A program made the translations under genes and the position numbers. A stretch of DNA of 64,000 bases from Actinomucor elegans (lineage: Eukaryota > Mucoromycota > Mucoromycetes > Mucorales > Mucoraceae). The notes beneath the pieces were generated by a model that searched no databases, was not told the origin of the DNA, and worked only from the letters and a program-made list of their open reading frames with translations. Location of the stretch: contig JAMSLZ010000003.1 of NCBI GenBank assembly GCA_026027325.1, positions 2,356,001-2,420,000 on the forward strand. The letters are read 5' to 3'. Shown here in pieces: positions 1,771 through 13,931 of the stretch (the first letter of the stretch is position 1; each line of letters opens with the position of its first letter).

Positions 1771-2220
1771 TCACTTTCTAGCCACAGATACCCAATATTC
1801 ATCTAATATATCTTTTTCATTAAAATCACATTCTTTAATCCAACTGTTATGTTCCTTACCATAATTCCTCCATTTAACAAAATATTCATATTTATCATAT
1901 AATTCTTTATGTTTTATTATGTATTGAATTTCGTATGAATTATTATGTAAAGTTTTATTATTTAATGTTGTATCAATATTCATTTCTTGCTCATTTACTT
2001 CTTCATTATCTATTGTTAATTTATTTAAAAAATTTAATTGAAGGTTTTTTATATCATTAATTTTATCTAATTTATAAACAGTTTTTAATGAAACATTTGT
2101 ATTTAATTCTCTATTTTCCGAAAATATATAATCAAAATTTTCTAATCTCCATTTATTATAATGGTTATTATCATTTAATTGAAATAAATCTTTAAAATAT
2201 TTAATATTTAAGGAGGTCAT
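1771..2220 (-). pseudogene. Chromodomain-containing ORF fragment, cut by the 8-kb element
   Basis: A 149-codon frame, far more AT-rich than its neighbours. Its last ~55 residues form a chromodomain: 'YEIQYIIKHKE', 'EYFVKWRNYG', then 'NSWI' and 'DILDEYW'. The aromatic-cage positions (Tyr, Trp, Tyr) are recognisable. The preceding ~90 residues are Asn/Leu-rich and unrecognised. The only ATG lies inside the terminal repeat of the adjacent element (2218-2220). The true N-terminus was therefore probably upstream and has been separated by that element. A chromodomain at the C-terminus is typical of chromoviral integrases and also of the transposase at 2716-4125, so this may be the tail of a retroelement integrase or an older transposase. 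Confidence 0.55.
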
Positions 2221-2493
2221 ACAGATACTCGCAATTGTTGTACAATTACTCGTACAGGTTCTGGGTTAGTGGATGACCGGGTGCAATAGAATGTGGTTAT
2301 ACAATATGTCTCCGGCATTCCAAATATTTCTAGCCGTTTTAAAAATTGGAAATAGCCATTTAAATGGGTACACATATCCAGAGAACATCACAGCAGCCAA
2401 AAATATGCCCATGAGTAAATACCTAAGGTCATCCACTAACCCAGAACCTGTACGAGTAATTGTACAACAATTGCGAGTATCTGTATGACCTCC
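2212..2493 (+). repeat. Terminal module A, left copy (plus orientation)
   Basis: Perfect 67-bp inverted arms (2212-2278 and 2427-2493) begin GGAGGTCATACAGATACTCG and end in its complement. They enclose a 148-nt loop that begins GGGTGCAATAG. The arms contain TTGTACAA. The loop contains the 12-bp palindrome CCATTTAAATGG and an imperfect GGCATTCCAA...TTGGAAATAGCC stem. Single strands of this module should fold into a large hairpin. Confidence 0.95.
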
Positions 2494-2636
2494 TAGTGGG
2501 ATATCTCACCACACACTGGTAGACATACGTTCCATAGCAAGGTAGTAGAGAGGGGGGGGGGGCCAAAAGGGATGATCTTGTCCAGAGACCTGAATAGTTT
2601 CAGCCCCCCTGGGAATGGAAACTAAGGAGCCTAAGG
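2494..2636 (+). repeat. Inverted repeat X, copy 1 (with poly-G tract)
   Basis: This 143-bp repeat begins TAGTGGGATATCTCACC and ends GGAGCCTAAGG, just inside A. It bounds unit U on its transposase side. It contains an 11-G run (10 G in the other three copies) and a CCCCCC run. Inverted partner at 5950-6091; further copies at 6374-6515 and 9827-9968. Confidence 0.92.
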
Positions 2637-2715
2637 CTACACTGTAGGACTGGGAGTGAACAACAGCATTTGGTAGCATACAACTCCTATTATACTACAG
2701 CATTCTTAAATAAAC

Positions 2716-4125
2716 ATGTTTCCGAAAGAAATAGTAGATGCGTTTACGTTGCTTATGGCGACTTACTGGCAGTTTCTTTCTAAAGATTGGCCAGTGTTGG
2801 AAAAGACTAAGTATCACCGGTCTGAGGTTAAGCCTGTAAAAGATATCCAGCATGTAAAAACTTATGTGTTGGAGCATCTTGGCTACATACCTGTTTTTTT
2901 CTTTCTCGTAGAGCTGTTTGCAAACCAAGAATATCCTGGTCCATATTCCAACGTGGACAAAGGATTGTTGATAATCTACCAGCTTCTTACCGGTTGTTCT
3001 ATTGCGCATATGGCACGTTTCATCCCTTCTAGTAGCTACCATGCTATTTACAATGCCTTTTATACAAAATACGGAGAGGAGCTGAATACCTGTTTGGACT
3101 ATTGCCTACGAAAGATGTTCTCCTCAACAAAGCTGCGAATTATGTGTGCTCTTCACCGAAACCCTGAAGATTTTAAGCATGTTACCTTGATGATAGATGG
3201 ACATGATTCTAGAGCAACATATATCAACGCTGCAGATCATGCCATGTTCTATTCGTATAAGCTTAAGAAGTCTGGCTTCCGAACACAAGTATGTACAGAT
3301 GTTAATGGGATGGTGTTGTTTGTCTCCGATGCGGCACCATGTTCAGATAACAACGATGGGTCTATGCTTGCTGATATGCGGTTGAAGAAGAAGATTAGTA
3401 AGTACGATTGTGTTGTCGTTGATGGTGGATACACTACTTTTATAGATCGTATTGTAGCAAATAATCGTCACCTGGATCGCCATAATTTTGTATTCCCTAT
3501 CCGTAAGTCTCGAGGAGTGGGTCTGAAACAAGAAGAAGTTAATTACAACTCCATTCTTGGAAGCTTTCGTTCCTCGATAGAAGCAACGTTTGGAGAGATT
3601 GGAACCTTATTTCAACGATTCAACGGTAAAGGCGTTATTCGAGTTACCGAGATGGAGACATTCACGGTACAGTTCAAGCTTGCATGTCTTCTTGCAAACA
3701 TCAAGAAGTTTGTTAACATTGGGTGTGTTTCTAGCTCTGAACAACATACTTTTTGGATGCAGCCTAACTTCGACTTTCCAAATGGCAGCAGTAAGAATGT
3801 CTATGACGTAGTAAGTACCCTTACAATTGCGGAAAAGTCCCAAGATGCTGAGATGGTAAAAGAAATACAGCAGCAGTTTCTCTCTTTGGGGGTGAACGAA
3901 GATAATGGCTCTGATGACGAACCCATCGACGAGGACTTACCACAAGGACACTACGAGGTTGAGGCCATTGTTGGGCATCGTGGACCAAAGCATCGTAGAG
4001 AGTATTTGGTTAGGTGGGTAGGCTATGATGAGAGTAGCAATAGTTGGCTTTCTCCTAACAACTTCGACGACTCTGATATTATTATCGAGTATGAGAAAGA
4101 CGTTAGAAGAAGGCGGAAGAAGTAG
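2716..4125 (+). CDS. DDE transposase-like protein with C-terminal chromodomain (copy 1)
   Basis: 469 aa, no intron. The catalytic core resembles the DDE_Tnp_4/PIF-Harbinger/IS5-like fold. Candidate residues are Asp161 ('LMIDGHDSRA'), Asp236 ('CVVVDGGYTTF') and Glu289 ('FRSSIEATFGEIGTLFQRF'). The N-terminal ~110 residues are helical and may bind DNA. An acidic linker (about 393-411) leads to a chromodomain at about 412-461 ('HYEVEAIVG', 'EYLVRWVGY', 'SNSWLSP'), with cage-like Tyr413, Trp434 and Tyr437. The tail is basic (RRRRKK). The fusion suggests targeting to methylated-histone chromatin, as in chromoviral integrases (inference). It lies 97 bp upstream of the Rep-like ORF on the same strand. 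The inverted copy at 8338-9747 translates identically. Start chosen as the first ATG after the X repeat. Superfamily is moderately sure; host specificity unknown. Confidence 0.85.
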   Translation: MFPKEIVDAFTLLMATYWQFLSKDWPVLEKTKYHRSEVKPVKDIQHVKTYVLEHLGYIPVFFFLVELFANQEYPGPYSNVDKGLLIIYQLLTGCSIAHMARFIPSSSYHAIYNAFYTKYGEELNTCLDYCLRKMFSSTKLRIMCALHRNPEDFKHVTLMIDGHDSRATYINAADHAMFYSYKLKKSGFRTQVCTDVNGMVLFVSDAAPCSDNNDGSMLADMRLKKKISKYDCVVVDGGYTTFIDRIVANNRHLDRHNFVFPIRKSRGVGLKQEEVNYNSILGSFRSSIEATFGEIGTLFQRFNGKGVIRVTEMETFTVQFKLACLLANIKKFVNIGCVSSSEQHTFWMQPNFDFPNGSSKNVYDVVSTLTIAEKSQDAEMVKEIQQQFLSLGVNEDNGSDDEPIDEDLPQGHYEVEAIVGHRGPKHRREYLVRWVGYDESSNSWLSPNNFDDSDIIIEYEKDVRRRRKK

Positions 4126-4222
4126 GTTCCACAAGGGGATGTTTTTTAAAACTTGTTAAAATATATGGAATATTTAAGCCTTTTAAAGCACATGGTAGCA
4201 TATTCTAAGCATATACTACACA

Positions 4223-5893
4223 ATGCCCCTTAGTAAAATCTTTATAGATTACAACCAATACCTTAGTAATATCTATGGTGTCGATTACACTTGTGGTAGC
4301 GCGACGAGAGAACGTGTGGGCTGGGATTATGTTAGCGCAGTATTCTGCGACAGCATTGTCTTCTGGTGTGCTGTACATTGGGAACAAGAGAAGCTAAGTT
4401 CTGCTGTAGGAATGTACATGAGCATTCTTCGGCTTCTTCTATCCCGTCACCTACAAGTGGAGCAGTTCAAGCTCTTTTACACTGGTAGGGGTAAATGGCA
4501 TGCTGGTGAAGATAAACTTGTCAACGACATCCAACAAAGGGAGGCAAAAGAATCAGGTATTAGCTGGGATAAATACCAGCCAGGCTATATATCGCTGAGA
4601 GTTTCGTTTGAGAATATCAGCTATGGGGAACTGTGGCCAAAGCTTAAGAAGATATGCTGTAAGGTTGCAAAGAATTATATCCTTTTACATGACTTGGATA
4701 TAAGCATCGACTGCGCCTACATATCAACACGCGATATTATTAAGGAGTACATTACTTCTAATGGCGTAGAAGATAAAGATATTGTCAACGATCGTCACTC
4801 AGTCGGTGATAACTGCTTATCATGGAGGCAGCATGATAGTTCTAGTGCTAAGATACCCTTACGAATAAAGATCTATAACAAGTTTGTCCAAATGCTTGAA
4901 AGCCGTGAATTAAGGTCTTTAATCGGCTCCCAATTGCACCACTTGGTTTCTAACCCTGACAAAGATTTTCAAGAGCGCCTTAATAAGTATCGTGGTAATG
5001 GTATGACCAGAATAGAAATTACGTTTTATAACACCCAACTCAAGAAGGAAAGCTATTATACCAAAACTATGTCTAGGGTCCTTGAGTTCCTTGATAATTG
5101 TCCAACATACAAGGTCAGCTTCGACAGACAATGGAAGCAACTAGCTAAGAACCTTACGCAAATGGCAGCTATATATGTTCCCAAAACAAAGACTTTCGCT
5201 TACTGCCATTGGTGGAACTCCCTTACCAAGCGAATGCAAGGCATAATTCATACAAAAGTACCAGAAGAGTACGTAATGCTCCATCTTGCAAACTTTAGCT
5301 TTAACGATAGGCCCATCCACTATCTGGTAGTTAAGTTTGAGAAGAATAGTCATGAATATAAGATACTCGAAGACAGCATATATCGTCGTGAAGAAGGATG
5401 TTCTGCCATCACGTTGGTTCCAGGGATATCTAACTCCTTAACACCCTATAGAAAGGATTTAACCAACAAAGCAGCTTCTTTTGGTGATTTAGGGATTTGT
5501 TCTTTCCGCAACATCACCCTCGAATGGCCAAAAAGTAGACTGCGACCTGAAAGAGGAGATAAACTTGCGACCATCAGGTTGGCCAAGGAGACACATGATG
5601 ATAAACTATTACAGCATCTAGATCCCTTCCCAGTGTCTGGAGCTAAACCAGATTATTCTTTCATGAAAGTAGGTGTGAAGTACCAAGTAACCGGATATGG
5701 TTATGGTACATTCCGAAGTAAGAACTATCTCCACTTACGGCTGTCCAATGGTACCTCAGTCCGTTGCAGTCCAGGTTTAAAACAAGTTGTAGAGAAGCAA
5801 CTAGAGAAGCATACCTTGTTCTATGTTTGTCTAATTCGAGTAAAGAAAGTACGTGGTGTTCGTGATGTAGAATGCGAGATCACCAACGTATGA
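4223..5893 (+). CDS. Rep-like 556-aa protein of the inverted-dimer element (intact copy)
   Basis: Intronless ORF 97 bp after the transposase ORF. I do not recognise the family with certainty. Visible features are a strand 'HDLDISIDCAYIS' with Asp157/159/163, a helix, then 'RIKIYNKF' (YNK at about 218-220) and 'GMTRIEITFYN' (Arg263-Ile-Glu265). This order of acidic strand, YNK strand and R-x-E strand recalls Rep_trans/gene-II-type rolling-circle initiators, but I cannot assign a catalytic Tyr or a clear HUH motif. The last ~75 residues ('KYQVTGYGYGTFRSKNYLHLRL'...) look like an all-beta, possibly OB-fold, module that could bind single strands. Pairing with a transposase inside hairpin-capable termini fits a replication or end-resolution role (inference). 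Alternatives are an accessory transposition protein or an unrelated nuclease. Confidence 0.7.
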   Translation: MPLSKIFIDYNQYLSNIYGVDYTCGSATRERVGWDYVSAVFCDSIVFWCAVHWEQEKLSSAVGMYMSILRLLLSRHLQVEQFKLFYTGRGKWHAGEDKLVNDIQQREAKESGISWDKYQPGYISLRVSFENISYGELWPKLKKICCKVAKNYILLHDLDISIDCAYISTRDIIKEYITSNGVEDKDIVNDRHSVGDNCLSWRQHDSSSAKIPLRIKIYNKFVQMLESRELRSLIGSQLHHLVSNPDKDFQERLNKYRGNGMTRIEITFYNTQLKKESYYTKTMSRVLEFLDNCPTYKVSFDRQWKQLAKNLTQMAAIYVPKTKTFAYCHWWNSLTKRMQGIIHTKVPEEYVMLHLANFSFNDRPIHYLVVKFEKNSHEYKILEDSIYRREEGCSAITLVPGISNSLTPYRKDLTNKAASFGDLGICSFRNITLEWPKSRLRPERGDKLATIRLAKETHDDKLLQHLDPFPVSGAKPDYSFMKVGVKYQVTGYGYGTFRSKNYLHLRLSNGTSVRCSPGLKQVVEKQLEKHTLFYVCLIRVKKVRGVRDVECEITNV

Positions 5894-5949
5894 GTACTTG
5901 TTTTTTAAAAGCTTCGCCCAACTGTCAACACATGTTACTCGTACTACAA

Positions 5950-6091
5950 CCTTAGGCTCCTTAGTTTCCATTCCCAGGGGGGCTGAAACTATTCAGGTCT
6001 CTGGACAAGATCATCCCTTTTGGCCCCCCCCCCTCTCTACTACCTTGCTATGGAACGTATGTCTACCAGTGTGTGGTGAGATATCCCACTA
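5950..6091 (-). repeat. Inverted repeat X, copy 2
   Basis: Reverse complement of copy 1 (142 bp, 10-C run). It closes unit U1 on the Rep-like gene side and abuts the central A module. Confidence 0.92.
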
Positions 6092-6373
6092 GGAGGTCAT
6101 ACAGATACTCGCAATTGTTGTACAATTACTCGTACAGGTTCTGGGTTAGTGGATGACCTTAGGTATTTACTCATGGGCATATTTTTGGCTGCTGTGATGT
6201 TCTCTGGATATGTGTACCCATTTAAATGGCTATTTCCAATTTTTAAAACGGCTAGAAATATTTGGAATGCCGGAGACATATTGTATAACCACATTCTATT
6301 GCACCCGGTCATCCACTAACCCAGAACCTGTACGAGTAATTGTACAACAATTGCGAGTATCTGTATGACCTCC
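6092..6373 (-). repeat. Terminal module A, central shared copy (reversed loop)
   Basis: Same 67-bp arms as the outer copies, but the 148-nt loop is inverted: after the left arm it reads TTAGGTATTTACTC instead of GGGTGCAATAG. This single module serves both units and is the dimer junction. Confidence 0.95.
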
Positions 6374-6515
6374 TAGTGGGATATCTCACCACACACTGGT
6401 AGACATACGTTCCATAGCAAGGTAGTAGAGAGGGGGGGGGGCCAAAAGGGATGATCTTGTCCAGAGACCTGAATAGTTTCAGCCCCCCTGGGAATGGAAA
6501 CTAAGGAGCCTAAGG
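6374..6515 (+). repeat. Inverted repeat X, copy 3
   Basis: Plus-oriented 142-bp copy with a 10-G run. It opens the second, inverted unit U2. Confidence 0.92.
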
Positions 6516-6571
6516 TTGTAGTACGAGTAACATGTGTTGACAGTTGGGCGAAGCTTTTAAAAAACAAGTAC

Positions 6572-8240
6572 TCATACGTTGGTGATCTCGCATTCTACAT
6601 CACGAACACCACGTACTTTCTTTACTCGAATTAGACAAACATAGAACAAGGTATGCTTCTCTAGTTGCTTCTCTACAACTTGTTTTAAACCTGGACTGCA
6701 ACGGACTGAGGTACCATTGGACAGCCGTAAGTGGAGATAGTTCTTACTTCGGAATGTACCATAACCATATCCGGTTACTTGGTACTTCACACCTACTTTC
6801 ATGAAAGAATAATCTGGTTTAGCTCCAGACACTGGGAAGGGATCTAGATGCTGTAATAGTTTATCATCATGTGTCTCCTTGGCCAACCTGATGGTCGCAA
6901 GTTTATCTCCTCTTTCAGGTCGCAGTCTACTTTTTGGCCATTCGAGGGTGATGTTGCGGAAAGAACAAATCCCTAAATCACCAAAAGAAGCTGCTTTGTT
7001 GGTTAAATCCTTTCTATAGGGTGTTAAGGAGTTAGATATCCCTGGAACCAACGTGATGGCAGAACATCCTTCTTCACGACGATATATGCTGTCTTCGAGT
7101 ATCTTATATTCATGACTATTCTTCTCAAACTTAACTACCAGATAGTGGATGGGCCTATCGTTAAAGCTAAAGTTTGCAAGATGGAGCATTACGTACTCTT
7201 CTGGTACTTTTGTATGAATTATGCCTTGCATTCGCTTGGTAAGGGAGTTCCACCAATGGCAGTAAGCGAAAGTCTTTGTTTTGGGAACATATATAGCTGC
7301 CATTTGCGTAAGGTTCTTAGCTAGTTGCTTCCATTGTCTGTCGAAGCTGACCTTGTATGTTGGACAATTATCAAGGAACTCAAGGACCCTAGACATAGTT
7401 TTGGTATAATAGCTTTCCTTCTTGAGTTGGGTGTTATAAAACGTAATTTCTATTCTGGTCATACCATTACCACGATACTTATTAAGGCGCTCTTGAAAAT
7501 CTTTGTCAGGGTTAGAAACCAAGTGGTGCAATTGGGAGCCGATTAAAGACCTTAATTCACGGCTTTCAAGCATTTGGACAAACTTGTTATAGATCTTTAT
7601 TCGTAAGGGTATCTTAGCACTAGAACTATCATGCTGCCTCCATGATAAGCAGTTATCACCGACTGAGTGACGATCGTTGACAATATCTTTATCTTCTACG
7701 CCATTAGAAGTAATGTACTCCTTAATAATATCGCGTGTTGATATGTAGGCGCAGTCGATGCTTATATCCAAGTCATGTAAAAGGATATAATTCTTTGCAA
7801 CCTTACAGCATATCTTCTTAAGCTTTGGCCACAGTTCCCCATAGCTGATATTCTCAAACGAAACTCTCAGCGATATAGCCTGGCTGGTATTTATCCCAGC
7901 TAATACCTGATTCTTTTGCCTCCCTTTGTTGGATGTCGTTGACAAGTTTATCTTCACCAGCATGCCATTTACCCCTACCAGTGTAAAAGAGCTTGAACTG
8001 CTCCACTTGTAGGTGACGGGATAGAAGAAGCCGAAGAATGCTCATGTACATTCCTACAGCAGAACTTAGCTTCTCTTGTTCCCAATGTACAGCACACCAG
8101 AAGACAATGCTGTCGCAGAATACTGCGCTAACATAATCCCAGCCCACACGTTCTCTCGTCGCGCTACCACAAGTGTAATCGACACCATAGATATTACTAA
8201 GGTATTGGTTGTAATCTATAAAGATTTTACTAAGGGGCAT
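6572..8240 (-). pseudogene. Rep-like gene, inverted copy broken by a 2-bp deletion
   Basis: Reverse-complement copy of 4223-5893. The upstream copy reads CTATATATCGC where this one has CTATATCGC (near 7878), a TA loss around codon 122. The frame splits into an N-terminal piece (8240 down to 7854, 128 codons) and a C-terminal piece that stays open to 6572. The downstream piece translates identically to the intact copy, so the break is recent. Only the 4223-5893 copy can make full-length protein. Confidence 0.9.
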
Positions 8241-8337
8241 TGTGTAGTATATGCTTAGAATATGCTACCATGTGCTTTAAAAGGCTTAAATATTCCATAT
8301 ATTTTAACAAGTTTTAAAAAACATCCCCTTGTGGAAC

Positions 8338-9747
8338 CTACTTCTTCCGCCTTCTTCTAACGTCTTTCTCATACTCGATAATAATATCAGAGTCGTCGAA
8401 GTTGTTAGGAGAAAGCCAACTATTGCTACTCTCATCATAGCCTACCCACCTAACCAAATACTCTCTACGATGCTTTGGTCCACGATGCCCAACAATGGCC
8501 TCAACCTCGTAGTGTCCTTGTGGTAAGTCCTCGTCGATGGGTTCGTCATCAGAGCCATTATCTTCGTTCACCCCCAAAGAGAGAAACTGCTGCTGTATTT
8601 CTTTTACCATCTCAGCATCTTGGGACTTTTCCGCAATTGTAAGGGTACTTACTACGTCATAGACATTCTTACTGCTGCCATTTGGAAAGTCGAAGTTAGG
8701 CTGCATCCAAAAAGTATGTTGTTCAGAGCTAGAAACACACCCAATGTTAACAAACTTCTTGATGTTTGCAAGAAGACATGCAAGCTTGAACTGTACCGTG
8801 AATGTCTCCATCTCGGTAACTCGAATAACGCCTTTACCGTTGAATCGTTGAAATAAGGTTCCAATCTCTCCAAACGTTGCTTCTATCGAGGAACGAAAGC
8901 TTCCAAGAATGGAGTTGTAATTAACTTCTTCTTGTTTCAGACCCACTCCTCGAGACTTACGGATAGGGAATACAAAATTATGGCGATCCAGGTGACGATT
9001 ATTTGCTACAATACGATCTATAAAAGTAGTGTATCCACCATCAACGACAACACAATCGTACTTACTAATCTTCTTCTTCAACCGCATATCAGCAAGCATA
9101 GACCCATCGTTGTTATCTGAACATGGTGCCGCATCGGAGACAAACAACACCATCCCATTAACATCTGTACATACTTGTGTTCGGAAGCCAGACTTCTTAA
9201 GCTTATACGAATAGAACATGGCATGATCTGCAGCGTTGATATATGTTGCTCTAGAATCATGTCCATCTATCATCAAGGTAACATGCTTAAAATCTTCAGG
9301 GTTTCGGTGAAGAGCACACATAATTCGCAGCTTTGTTGAGGAGAACATCTTTCGTAGACAATAGTCCAAACAGGTATTCAGCTCCTCTCCGTATTTTGTA
9401 TAAAAGGCATTGTAAATAGCATGGTAGCTACTAGAAGGGATGAAACGTGCCATATGCGCAATAGAACAACCGGTAAGAAGCTGGTAGATTATCAACAATC
9501 CTTTGTCCACGTTGGAATATGGACCAGGATATTCTTGGTTTGCAAACAGCTCTACGAGAAAGAAAAAAACAGGTATGTAGCCAAGATGCTCCAACACATA
9601 AGTTTTTACATGCTGGATATCTTTTACAGGCTTAACCTCAGACCGGTGATACTTAGTCTTTTCCAACACTGGCCAATCTTTAGAAAGAAACTGCCAGTAA
9701 GTCGCCATAAGCAACGTAAACGCATCTACTATTTCTTTCGGAAACAT
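8338..9747 (-). CDS. DDE transposase-like protein with chromodomain (copy 2, inverted)
   Basis: Reverse-complement copy of 2716-4125, 469 aa. The translation is identical, including the three candidate catalytic acids and the chromodomain. The locus therefore has two potentially functional transposase genes but only one intact Rep-like gene. The 5' flank up to the X repeat (9748-9826) also mirrors copy 1. Confidence 0.85.
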   Translation of the reverse strand: MFPKEIVDAFTLLMATYWQFLSKDWPVLEKTKYHRSEVKPVKDIQHVKTYVLEHLGYIPVFFFLVELFANQEYPGPYSNVDKGLLIIYQLLTGCSIAHMARFIPSSSYHAIYNAFYTKYGEELNTCLDYCLRKMFSSTKLRIMCALHRNPEDFKHVTLMIDGHDSRATYINAADHAMFYSYKLKKSGFRTQVCTDVNGMVLFVSDAAPCSDNNDGSMLADMRLKKKISKYDCVVVDGGYTTFIDRIVANNRHLDRHNFVFPIRKSRGVGLKQEEVNYNSILGSFRSSIEATFGEIGTLFQRFNGKGVIRVTEMETFTVQFKLACLLANIKKFVNIGCVSSSEQHTFWMQPNFDFPNGSSKNVYDVVSTLTIAEKSQDAEMVKEIQQQFLSLGVNEDNGSDDEPIDEDLPQGHYEVEAIVGHRGPKHRREYLVRWVGYDESSNSWLSPNNFDDSDIIIEYEKDVRRRRKK

Positions 9748-9826
9748 GTTTATTTAAGAATGCTGTAGTATAATAGGAGTTGTATGCTACCAAATGCTGT
9801 TGTTCACTCCCAGTCCTACAGTGTAG

Positions 9827-9968
9827 CCTTAGGCTCCTTAGTTTCCATTCCCAGGGGGGCTGAAACTATTCAGGTCTCTGGACAAGATCATCCCTTTTGG
9901 CCCCCCCCCCTCTCTACTACCTTGCTATGGAACGTATGTCTACCAGTGTGTGGTGAGATATCCCACTA
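9827..9968 (-). repeat. Inverted repeat X, copy 4
   Basis: 142 bp, 10-C run, reverse complement of copy 1. It ends at the right-hand A module. Confidence 0.92.
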
Positions 9969-10250
9969 GGAGGTCATACAGATACTCGCAATTGTTGTAC
10001 AATTACTCGTACAGGTTCTGGGTTAGTGGATGACCGGGTGCAATAGAATGTGGTTATACAATATGTCTCCGGCATTCCAAATATTTCTAGCCGTTTTAAA
10101 AATTGGAAATAGCCATTTAAATGGGTACACATATCCAGAGAACATCACAGCAGCCAAAAATATGCCCATGAGTAAATACCTAAGGTCATCCACTAACCCA
10201 GAACCTGTACGAGTAATTGTACAACAATTGCGAGTATCTGTATGACCTCC
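9969..10250 (+). repeat. Terminal module A, right copy (plus orientation)
   Basis: 282 bp with the loop in the same orientation as the left copy (GGGTGCAATAG after the arm). A true palindrome would need the opposite orientation here, so this end is flipped relative to its mirror. The module stops at GACCTCC, followed by host or LTR sequence ACTGATTC. Confidence 0.95.
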
Positions 10251-10856
10251 ACTGATTCACTCGCTTTTTATTCAATTTTTACCGCAGTAAAGGTGGTAGA
10301 TGGAGATTTGGAAAGATAGAAATACTTTTAAAACTGTGGGTAGTTTTTATTATAGATCAAGAATTGATTAACTGGTCAAAAGGTGATAAAACGCATCTCT
10401 TATATACTTTTTCACGATCGGCACTTAATTCTAAATTCATATTACGATTTGCCAGGAACAAGGTTGGACTGCGTATAAAGAAGACCAGGGATAATAACCA
10501 AATGAGCGGACCAAGATTAGCGGCGAGGAGTGTCGGGATCAATATATTCAAAGGTAATAGTATTGGATGTAATATTTGGTGTGAGAGATAGTATTTATCA
10601 ATTAGCGTCTACTTGCTCAGGGTGATATATAAATAAAGATATTTTAACATAATCAAATACAGTCATTTACATTCTGGTTCTTGGTAATAATGCTTTATAC
10701 ACTTCTGCAGCTATATATAAGGATATCTATACGATTTTCTATCTGTACAGTATTCTCTTATTAATATAATCATGAGCGTTTACAACACTCTTTAATAAAT
10801 CAATTCGTTTTATCAGTCTGGTTATTTTTACAGTCTTTATTATATTCGATATAACA
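10251..10856 (-). repeat. 3' LTR remnant of the gag element, truncated by the 8-kb element
   Basis: On the minus strand it starts TGTTATATCGAATATAAT at 10856. The first ~64 nt match the LTR end at 12645-12708. It then aligns patchily with the plus-oriented LTR at 12873-13931: a shared TGTTGTAAACGCTCATGATT block, a CATTATTACC..CCAGAAT block, and an ACCCACAGTTTT block near a TATA-like GTATATAAG. It ends abruptly at the right A module; the missing ~500 bp of LTR is not found left of 2212. Confidence 0.7.
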
Positions 10857-12011
10857 CAGATGACGCACGAGAGATAGCCTTACAATTGGCAGTATCATGG
10901 GTATTGACTTTGTGAAAAGAACAATATTTCCCAGTGGAAGCAGTAGAAGAAGAACGTTTGGCAACCTTACCAATAGACATGGCAGAAGAGGCAACACCAA
11001 GAGAAGAAGGAACAGCGTGACGAGACTTATCACTTTCACGGTGCACATAGTTGGCAGCAGAAGGTATGTTTGACACACGCGAAGAAGAACCAGAAGCAGA
11101 AGAAACAGAAGCAGAGACACCAGGAAGACCTTTCTCTTTGTACAAGTCATTGTACAGTTCACGAGCAAGACGCATCACTACATCCACATTCGACTTTTGA
11201 TCCTTTGGTAAGGAAAGACGCGAAGTAATGACCTTGTCAGCAAATTCAGTGGGCAAAGCGTGTAAAAACTTATCCACAAGAATCGAGGCAGGTAAGCACT
11301 GGTCAACAGCACGACGACGAAGATCATTGAAGCGATCAATGAAAGCAAAAAGATATTCACCTTTGGCTAACTTGATGTCAACAAGAGAGCGAGCACAGGC
11401 AGCACGATCTTCATCAACGGTTGTACCAAACCGAGAGAGGAACTCATTCTTGAACATGAGCCAAGTAGGGGAAGCAATACCAGCGGCACGAGCGTTCTGG
11501 TGGAACTCAACTTCATACCAGGTAAGTTGAGCTTGCGACATTTGAGACAACACTAATCTTTCATAGTTGGTGTCAAAGTCTAAACGATGAGCATACATTA
11601 CGTTTTGAAAACGTGTCAAACAAGCAGCAGCATCGATAAAAATATGAGCACTAGGCTCATGGACTTCACCAACCCATTGAAGATAAGGCATGTTGTTGGG
11701 ACACACACTAGAAACCTTGATGGGTGCCTTGGGATCAACAACAGCGCGAGCATACTTGACAGAGTCAGCATTGGATTTCTCAATTAAGGCTTTGGTAGCG
11801 ATAACAGCCTTAAGAACACTATCCTTCTGCAAGTATTCAGCCTGGGAATCATCAAGATTATCACCAGATAAAGGAGACGAGAGACGAGCAGCAAGAATGG
11901 TTAACTCAATAGTGAGTTGGTTGATAGTATCTTGCATACTACGGAGAGATTCTTCAGCTTGCACTTGACGATCACCAAAAGAAGCAGTGCAGAACCAGAA
12001 GATTCTTCCAT
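10840..12011 (-). pseudogene. Retrotransposon Gag, pol deleted, N-terminal frameshift
   Basis: The main frame (11964 to 10840, 374 codons) is a Ty3/gypsy-type Gag capsid region ('LTWYEVEFHQNA', 'FLSRFGTT', 'KGEYLFAFIDRFNDLRRR') with a Ser-rich tail. The tail carries a knuckle-like Cys/His cluster 'CSFHKVNTHDTANC'. A likely start ATG at 12011 is in a different frame ('MEESSGSALL'); the frames would join by a one-base shift near 11985. The C-terminus reads straight into LTR sequence at 10856 with no pol and no polypurine tract, so pol was removed by internal deletion. Transcription would start in the LTR at 12143-12708. Confidence 0.8.
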
Positions 12012-12142
12012 GGATGTATCAAGAACAGGTAAGTTGGCTTGAGCAACAGAAACAGTAGGTTCACCAGAGTGAACATGGAGGCAGCAGGAGAAGACATTGG
12101 TAATAAGATTGTAATTGTTGGAAAAAGCTTGACTCAAAAAAA

Positions 12143-12708
12143 TGTTATATCCGGTGCTAAAGACGAAGGATGTAATTTAAAATACAATAATAAAATAATA
12201 GACAGTAAATGGAATCAGCTATCCTGATAGTAAAAGTTATTCTAATCTTTATTCACAATTCAAAATCAAGTCTTCTTTATAAACATTTCATCAGAGCTTA
12301 ATAGTGCAGCATTCAATCTATCAGCACGCATGGCCGTACAACGGAGTCAAATCCCAGCAGTCACTAATAAGCCTTTCAACCACGCATTGTTGTAATTGTA
12401 TAACCCACGCGTTATTCGATATTCAGGTGTCTTATCTTGAGATACACTTGATACTACTCGATAGTATGATGCCGCGTGTTTCTTGTAAGGATTATTGGCT
12501 AATAGTTCTAAGGATGACACATCGCTTGTATTTATGCAGGCCTCGTTAATCTGATTGGGTTATCAGATAGAGTCCGTGTATGACATAAATGAACAGTTGA
12601 TTCCTTACTATTATGTCGATGCAAAATAGTAGGTGGAATACAACAAATAAATCAATTCGTTTTATCAGTCTGGTTATTTTTACAGTCTTTATTATATTCG
12701 ATATAACA
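12143..12708 (-). repeat. 5' LTR of the gag element (internally deleted)
   Basis: 566 bp with matching ends, TGTTATATC at 12143 and GATATAACA at 12708, the TG...CA and short inverted termini expected of an LTR. About 500 bp (12143-12640) is repeated in inverted orientation at 13436-13931. Relative to the other two copies a middle part is missing between GATTTATT and TGTTGTATTCCACC (minus-strand reading), including the TATA region. Confidence 0.85.
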
Positions 12709-12872
12709 TACGTGTTTAATTAACGAGAGAGATTTATTCTACCACTGCCAGCCTTCTGTTATTAATAGGCTGGGTAGTGGTTACATAGAGTAAATATAAC
12801 TAGTCACGATTAAACACAAGTTAACTATTCAGGTACACTTCTATTACTATTCTATGTAAAGTAGTTATGTCT
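12709..12872. other. Spacer between the two inverted LTRs, with a hairpin
   Basis: No gene. At 12740-12780 CCACTGCCAGCCT and AGGCTGGGTAGTGG form an imperfect 13-bp stem around a TTCTGTTATTAAT-type loop. Confidence 0.5.
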
Positions 12873-13931
12873 GTTGTAAACGCTCATGATTATATCAGTA
12901 AAGAAGAGGTTGTATAGGCTTTGGTAGCCATATGCCCACCTTTATGAATAGCTTGAAGATGTAACTCATTATTACCCGAATCCAGAATATGAACAACTGT
13001 GTAATTATTACGCTTTATTATAAAACAAGAAATAGCAGTAAAAGACAAATTCCTAATCGAGTGTTATGCCGAGATAAAATGCTTACCTTTATTTACAGTC
13101 CGATATGGTACCGCAGTATGTCGGCCATCATCATCATCTTGGAATATCAGCAAGTCACTATGAGCCGCGCAGTCAACAAGCTACTAGCTTACGTATACCC
13201 ATAATATCATTAGTCAACCGCAGCAAGCTGAAAAGTATAAAAGGACGAGCTCTTAGCTGATTAGAAAAAGATTCATTCGAAAATTAATTTTGGAAATAAA
13301 AAGACTTACCACAGTTTTGATATTATTCTTCTGTTCTTCTATTATAATCCTCTTTCTATCCACGTACACAACAATGTCCATTACAATAACAACTTAACTC
13401 TACCTATGCGCGCAATCTCTGTCTCTCTGTTGTATTCCACCTACTATCTTGCATCGACATAATAGTAAGGAATCAACTGTTCATTTATGTCATACACGGA
13501 CTCTATCTGATAACCCAATCAGATTAACGAGGCCTGCATAAATGCAAGCGATGTGTCATCCTTAGAACTATTAGCCAATAATCCTTACAAGAAACACGCG
13601 GCATCATACTATCGAGTAGTATCAAGTGTATCTCAAGATAAGACACCTGAATATCGAATAACGCGTGGGTTATACAATTACAACAATGCGTGGTTGAAAG
13701 GCTTATTAGTGGCTGCTGGGATTTGACTCCGTTGTACGGTCATGCGTGCTGATAGATTGAATGCTACACTATTAAGCTCTGATGAAATGTTTATAAAGAA
13801 GACTTGATTTCGAATTGTGAATAAAGATTAGAATAACTTTTACTATCAGGATAGCTGATTCCATTTACTGTCTATTCTTTTATTATTGTATTTTAAATTA
13901 TATCCTTCGTCTTTAAGCACCGGATATAACA
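12873..13931 (+). repeat. LTR, plus orientation, 5'-truncated
   Basis: It ends CACCGGATATAACA at 13931, the mirror of the LTR end at 12143. It carries a TATA-like box GTATAAAAGG near 13236. The 13436-13931 half is the inverted repeat of 12143-12640. The first 70 or so LTR bases, known from 10794-10856, are absent: it begins directly with TGTTGTAAACGCTCATG. No internal element sequence follows on the right, so it is a solo or broken LTR. Confidence 0.7.

Follow-up and report, generated by a model that had tools for sequence, protein, structure and literature searches.

How did two units of one mobile element come to lie in inverse orientation, with a single terminal module shared between them? 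This question is raised by a locus of the fungus Actinomucor elegans, contained in a 64,000-nt stretch of contig JAMSLZ010000003.1 (positions 2,356,001 to 2,420,000; hereafter, the window). The locus reads A(+)-U-A(-)-U'-A(+), where A is a 282-bp terminal module, the signs give the orientation of its centre, and the units U and U', inverted relative to each other, have the middle A in common (Table 1). An earlier reading of the letters, the original prediction, described this layout correctly and took it for an integrated replication intermediate of a hairpin-ended element. We find it rather probable, instead, that A-U-A is a composite-like DDE transposon whose ends are remodelled by a nickase of the Rep_trans type, and that its dimer arose by recombination.

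The two units match each other as inverted arms of 2038 nt and 1571 nt at 100% identity, and U carries TA at both ends together with an inner inverted repeat of 142-143 nt. U' differs from U in a 2-nt deletion, one private substitution and the length of a G-run. The deletion shifts the frame of the Rep-like open reading frame (ORF). Thus, the claim that each unit encodes a DDE transposase and a Rep-like protein stands for the first gene only: the 469-aa DDE/chromodomain ORF is intact in both units, whereas the 556-aa Rep-like ORF is intact in U and broken in U'.

Table 1. Features of the dimer and its flanks (positions in the window; LTR, long terminal repeat)
Feature	Position	Strand	Details
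Left flank: diverged DDE gene, 3' part with the chromodomain, interrupted where A begins	1771-2211	-	ORF 1771-2220; Chromo E 2.6e-07
Terminal module A, centre (+)	2212-2493	+	arm 2212-2278, centre 2279-2426, arm 2427-2493
Subterminal inverted repeat of U, DDE side (TAGTGGGATATC...)	2494-2636	+	
Transposase, 469 aa, DDE_Tnp_4 (PF13359) and C-terminal chromodomain	2716-4125	+	PF13359 E 1e-11, PF00385 E 5.4e-10
Rep_trans-like protein, 556 aa, predicted nickase	4223-5893	+	proposed nucleophile Y218; proposed metal ligands D43, D159, E265
Subterminal inverted repeat of U, Rep side	5950-6091	-	
Shared middle module A, centre inverted (-)	6092-6373	-	putative place of the recombination joining U and U'
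Second unit U', inverse orientation	6374-9968	-	
Rep-like gene of U', frame-shifted	6572-8240	-	split into ORFs 7854-8240 and 6572-7963
Transposase ORF of U', intact	8338-9747	-	
Terminal module A, centre (+)	9969-10250	+	
Right flank: 36-nt tail of an LTR (285 nt), followed by retroelement sequence	10251-10286	.	

Copies of A-U-A were surveyed at the DNA level in this genome (36.5 Mb, 27 contigs). With up to three mismatches allowed, the pattern of the A centre was found at 60 places and that of the U end at 42, and the reversed controls at none; counts of this kind would miss more diverged copies. The 42 U ends form 21 U units at 20 loci, to which 41 of the 60 A centres belong. The family thus comprises 19 single elements, some of them split by later insertions, and one dimer, that of the window. 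Its transposase is open at full length in at least 13 copies, including the window's two, in a search for DDE matches in which 91 of 425 candidates were scored. The Rep-like gene gave 18 matches of 95-100% identity, all within the family; in this genome it was found neither outside A-U-A copies nor with other DDE families. A 3-bp target duplication flanks 16 of the 19 testable loci (chance expectation 0.36), the 20th having been left out because part of one end is missing. The loci without one are the dimer (TAA/ACT), C26:38982-41386 (ACT/AAA) and C12:3671855 (ATT/AGT). TTA and TAA do not occur among the 16 duplications.

The remaining 19 A centres are solo A's or fragments. Two are fragments, a duplicated piece of a broken element at C12:3690303 and a partial A at C21:2323794, and 17 are near-complete solo A's. 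Four of the latter have the same flanks, as do two others; with each such set counted once, they represent 13 distinct loci, nine of which show duplications. One solo A with the same flanks recurs at C3:76688, C11:18605, C14:19580 and C8:184139, i.e., in duplicated segments. Being flanked by target duplications, A-U-A behaves like a product of the transposase, and so does A, alone or as what is left of A-U-A. Two solo A's are of greater age (75% and 81% identity), which shows that the A module has a history of its own. Overall, A-U-A is a young, recently active, multi-copy, composite-like DNA transposon family, and its recognition as a eukaryotic mobile element was right.

Module A (GGAGGTC...GACCTCC) consists of two perfectly inverted 67-bp arms around a 148-bp centre. 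As single-stranded DNA it folds far beyond chance (z = -21); a hairpin of the centre's own was considered and rejected, since the centre alone folds no better than chance (z = -0.65; 47 of 200 shuffles fold equally well). Of 43 copies set against the A of the window, 36 show no difference, the comparison omitting five listed copies, four with 0 mismatches and one partial. The centres, in turn, occur in both orientations. With each of 20 units oriented by its own U, the A's with (+) and (-) centres number 6 and 14 at the DDE end, and 13 and 7 at the Rep end; here the dimer counts as two units with a common A and a snap-back element is omitted. All four combinations are present (8, 6, 5 and 1 units), with no significant bias (binomial 0.12 and 0.26) and no significant linkage of the ends (Fisher 0.35). 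Since the A copies are almost all identical and yet face both ways, inversions of A must be far commoner than substitutions. Furthermore, in two elements a private substitution recurs at one and the same site in both A's, and in a third element one A only is changed. At least in the two former, one end was therefore copied from the other, as happens in LTR elements.

Several derivatives accompany the complete elements. An internal deletion that removes the entire Rep ORF is common to seven copies (junction at positions 4154/5902 of the window, within a short repeat), and an eighth copy has the same length. In this Rep-deleted form, five copies have target duplications at different sites, two have none and one is not testable; judging from the different sites, the DDE-only form has itself spread. 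A snap-back derivative at C4:61335-62809 is composed of perfect 726-nt arms around a 23-nt spacer within an ATA duplication, and its turn reads as a 5-nt microhomology. Later insertions into A-U-A include copies of another DDE family, related at 35% identity, and a short derivative that has its ends in common with this family; no A module is present at the ends visible, and the duplications are TTA, TAA and TATT. Several DDE families with 35-46% identity, the related one among them, lie on C5, C8, C22 and other contigs, some with many full-length matches of equal score.

What, then, is the second protein? The 556-aa product has no Pfam match at E<=1, and no named family was assigned to it by Pfam (25 of 44 weak families listed), NCBIfam, PDB sequences or a second profile search. 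Rep_trans itself (PF02486) gave 0 genome matches at E<=10 and is not among the 25 of 44 families listed for the protein's 71 relatives. The predicted structure contains the TBP-like crescent catalytic fold, and its best matches are Rep_trans rolling-circle initiators and TBP. The Rep_trans signature (three acidic metal ligands, Tyr with K and E/Q, RxE) is present as well. Assigned by sequence motif and strand order rather than by superposed coordinates, the catalytic set is kept among the 71 relatives as follows: D43 in 70, D159 in 69, E265 in 70, and Y218, K220, Q223 and R263 in all 71. A hypergeometric figure for these residues was set aside, because they had been paired with their conservation in view. 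Weak support comes from structure matches in BFVD, where rank 6 is taken by one named inovirus Rep and several giant-virus proteins occur beside several without a name. The protein is thus apparently a remote Rep_trans relative and, going by fold and catalytic residues, apparently a competent nickase, which makes its description as Rep-like more specific. No relatives were found in IMG/VR. A hit to phrog_702, "replication protein" (E 1.6e-06), concerned one of the 71 members only, was absent in 18 of the 71 and two others rescanned singly, and was not used as evidence.

The Rep_trans proteins (PF02486; RepDE, RepSTK1, RelSt3) and archaeal Rep-Arvir share with the fungal protein the TBP-like crescent, the three acidic ligands, YxKxxE/Q and RxE. 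The fungal protein differs in being coupled to a DDE transposase, in some 250 extra C-terminal residues and in escaping recognition by PF02486; it also lacks the Arg of motif I and the greater part of motif II. A 2026 report considers Rep_trans apparently confined to bacteria and describes one related family from archaea (PMC13107129), and bacterial and archaeal members are described as acting at hairpin or palindromic origins (PMC4797284, PMC6499999, PMC5714925, PMC13107129). By analogy, the Rep_trans-like nickase plausibly acts on the A palindromes.

Its association with a DDE transposase may extend beyond this genome. Indirectly, when 108 Rep entries are compared with 119 DDE entries, 11 of the former lie on a contig exactly equal in size to that of a DDE entry; with the sizes shifted by 1-10, the number is 0-6 (mean 2.1). 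In this comparison contigs were equated by size alone, the DDE list held the best 120 of 213, and the window's own entry and those without a size were omitted. In Rhizomucor, P0087 joins DDE and the Rep region, and P0046 a chromodomain and the Rep region, each in a single predicted protein. Beyond the Rep_trans domain, a C-terminal FAYCHWWNS motif (P0001 residues 325-333, and relatives) is nearly invariant. One relative, P0110, is filed under a Nitrososphaerales metagenome-assembled genome and possibly represents fungal contamination.

Taken together, these data induce us to propose the following scenario. A PIF/Harbinger-type DDE_Tnp_4-chromodomain transposase would insert A-U-A units and solo A's into 3-bp duplications, as the target duplications indicate, and the 282-bp A modules are re-copied and flipped during amplification, as their pattern shows. 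The putative Rep_trans-type tyrosine nickase may nick the extruded A palindrome and start DNA synthesis there; primer ends created in this way could lead to flips, end-to-end copying and occasional snap-back products. A stronger version, in which DDE cut-and-paste is coupled to a eukaryotic Rep_trans nickase that replicates the element or its ends by hairpin transfer, with flip/flop in each cycle, is offered tentatively, and rolling-hairpin replication of the whole A-U-A element is possible.

The main alternative, which needs no nickase activity, combines ordinary cut-and-paste with host gap repair from a sister copy, the Rep_trans-fold protein being a DNA-binding helper only. Template switching at the 67-bp arms or the long terminal repeats would then flip the centres, homogenise the ends, delete the Rep gene and make the snap-back form. 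Such a scheme fits the target duplications, the one common deletion located within a short repeat, the apparent microhomology at the snap-back turn, and the amplification and flipping of DDE-only copies. It also agrees with the 3-4-bp duplications of the related DDE family (35%) without a visible A module and with the lack of Rep relatives found outside A-U-A. However, the catalytic residues are retained as a full set in 71 relatives, which speaks for an active nickase rather than a DNA binder only, and flips so much commoner than substitutions need a very efficient process. Host repair as the full account is somewhat doubtful.

As to the dimer, its two flanks belong to different sequences. 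The left one, with 40 of 198 candidates scored, recurs in at least 39 further copies at 69% DNA identity, several of them inside genomic DDE matches, and the similarity to the left flank stops 3 nt short of the junction; to the right of the dimer there is no DDE match among those listed (91 of 425 candidates scored). A pattern running leftwards from the right flank through AAAACGGTTCTAACT was found at 84 places (<=3 mismatches; reversed control 0), and the first part of this LTR is absent left of the dimer. In another element, an insertion of this 285-nt sequence (TG...CA) is flanked by the 5-bp duplication GGCAG; we read it as a solo LTR. After insertion of a single unit, the flanks should be contiguous elsewhere and bear a duplication, neither of which was observed. 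Two opposite insertions, one per sequence, that recombined through one A would account for an A common to both units, for their opposite orientation and for flanks that do not match. Thus, the dimer most likely represents two neighbouring opposite insertions fused in this way, with the intervening DNA lost. Its loss is assumed, since the reciprocal product (the first LTR part joined to A) was not found in 101 loci and the window. Exchanged target duplications after recombination are documented for Galileo (PMC2775673), and the KolobokP authors used the presence of duplications to exclude a recombination origin of multimers (PMC9587614).

An origin of the dimer by hairpin-primed replication, followed by its integration in that form, is improbable in spite of its shared single terminus, the flip-flop ends, the Rep-type protein and the snap-back derivative. 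The missing target duplication, the flanks from two sequences and the occurrence of just one dimer in 20 loci speak against it, as do, weakly because all copies are near-identical, the substitution and the 2-nt deletion between U and U'. The search for monomers and other dimers, which the original prediction had set as its own trial, ended largely against its account of the dimer (19 single elements, mostly with duplications, and no other dimer), although the copies are not simple terminal-inverted-repeat elements either. Near-perfect 3.9-kb inverted arms are difficult to assemble, but a single element mis-joined as an inverted pair is highly improbable, given the substitution, 2-nt deletion and G-run length that separate U from U', the different flanks and the 19 other loci assembled as single units.

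Typical PIF/Harbinger elements have a TWA-like target, simple inverted repeats and a second protein that is usually Myb-like. A-U-A shares with them the DDE_Tnp_4 transposase (45.1 bits, cut-off 24.8), the 3-bp duplication and the possession of two genes. It departs from them in the C-terminal chromodomain, the Rep_trans-like partner in place of a Myb-like protein, the palindromic flip-flop modules, and a target that is not TWA-like, with no TTA/TAA duplication. The termini of adeno-associated virus (AAV) and other parvoviruses consist of an arm-loop-arm' palindrome followed by an inner repeat present once per end, occur as flip and flop, and give snap-back and dimer forms. All of this recurs in A-U-A, including the terminal palindromes in both orientations expected of a rolling-hairpin replicon. 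Unlike these viruses, A-U-A lies in 3-bp duplications with a DDE transposase, no HUH Rep or capsid gene was found in it, and its centre is without hairpins above chance. PIF/Harbinger elements have been reported in Mucorales (PMC7928374).

No description of A-U-A was found in the literature searched; the statement that no DDE family has this layout was nevertheless too strong. KolobokP (PMC9587614), the nearest known element in architecture, is composite-like and ~4 kb long. Its internal region encodes a DDE transposase and, as a second gene, a nuclease; it has two long terminal modules with their own inverted ends, solo modules with short target duplications, and multimers sharing a module. 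KolobokP belongs, however, to the Kolobok superfamily of animals, and A-U-A is fungal. In KolobokP the modules lie as direct repeats and their inverted ends measure 11-18 bp, in contrast to 67-bp arms and flipping centres; its multimers are tandem and have target duplications, in contrast to one inverted dimer without. Composite architecture and solo modules are thus found in A-U-A, but a Kolobok transposase and a His-Me finger nuclease are not, and the architecture looks like an independent parallel. In Galileo, too, separate insertions recombine through their long inverted ends, and target duplications are exchanged as a result, although this Drosophila element of the P superfamily yields inversions (PMC2775673) and A-U-A a fused dimer.

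If our interpretation is true, the Rep_trans enzyme class extends to eukaryotes, and two unrelated mobilisation chemistries are joined in one element. Should the hairpin-transfer version apply, A-U-A would be, in the literature searched, the first DDE transposon whose ends are rolling-hairpin-like, and its Rep_trans enzyme the first from a eukaryote. The near-identical copies with flip-flop ends make it a directly testable question whether a nickase rewrites transposon ends.

Finally, retroelement remains occupy positions 10251-13000 of the window. They contain a gag-like ORF (10840-11964, minus strand; Retrotrans_gag just under the cut-off) and a perfect 63-nt direct repeat at 10794 and 12646. 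Beside retroelement sequence, an inverted repeat of 488 nt (98%) spans 12158-12645 and 13428-13915, with 782 nt between its arms.
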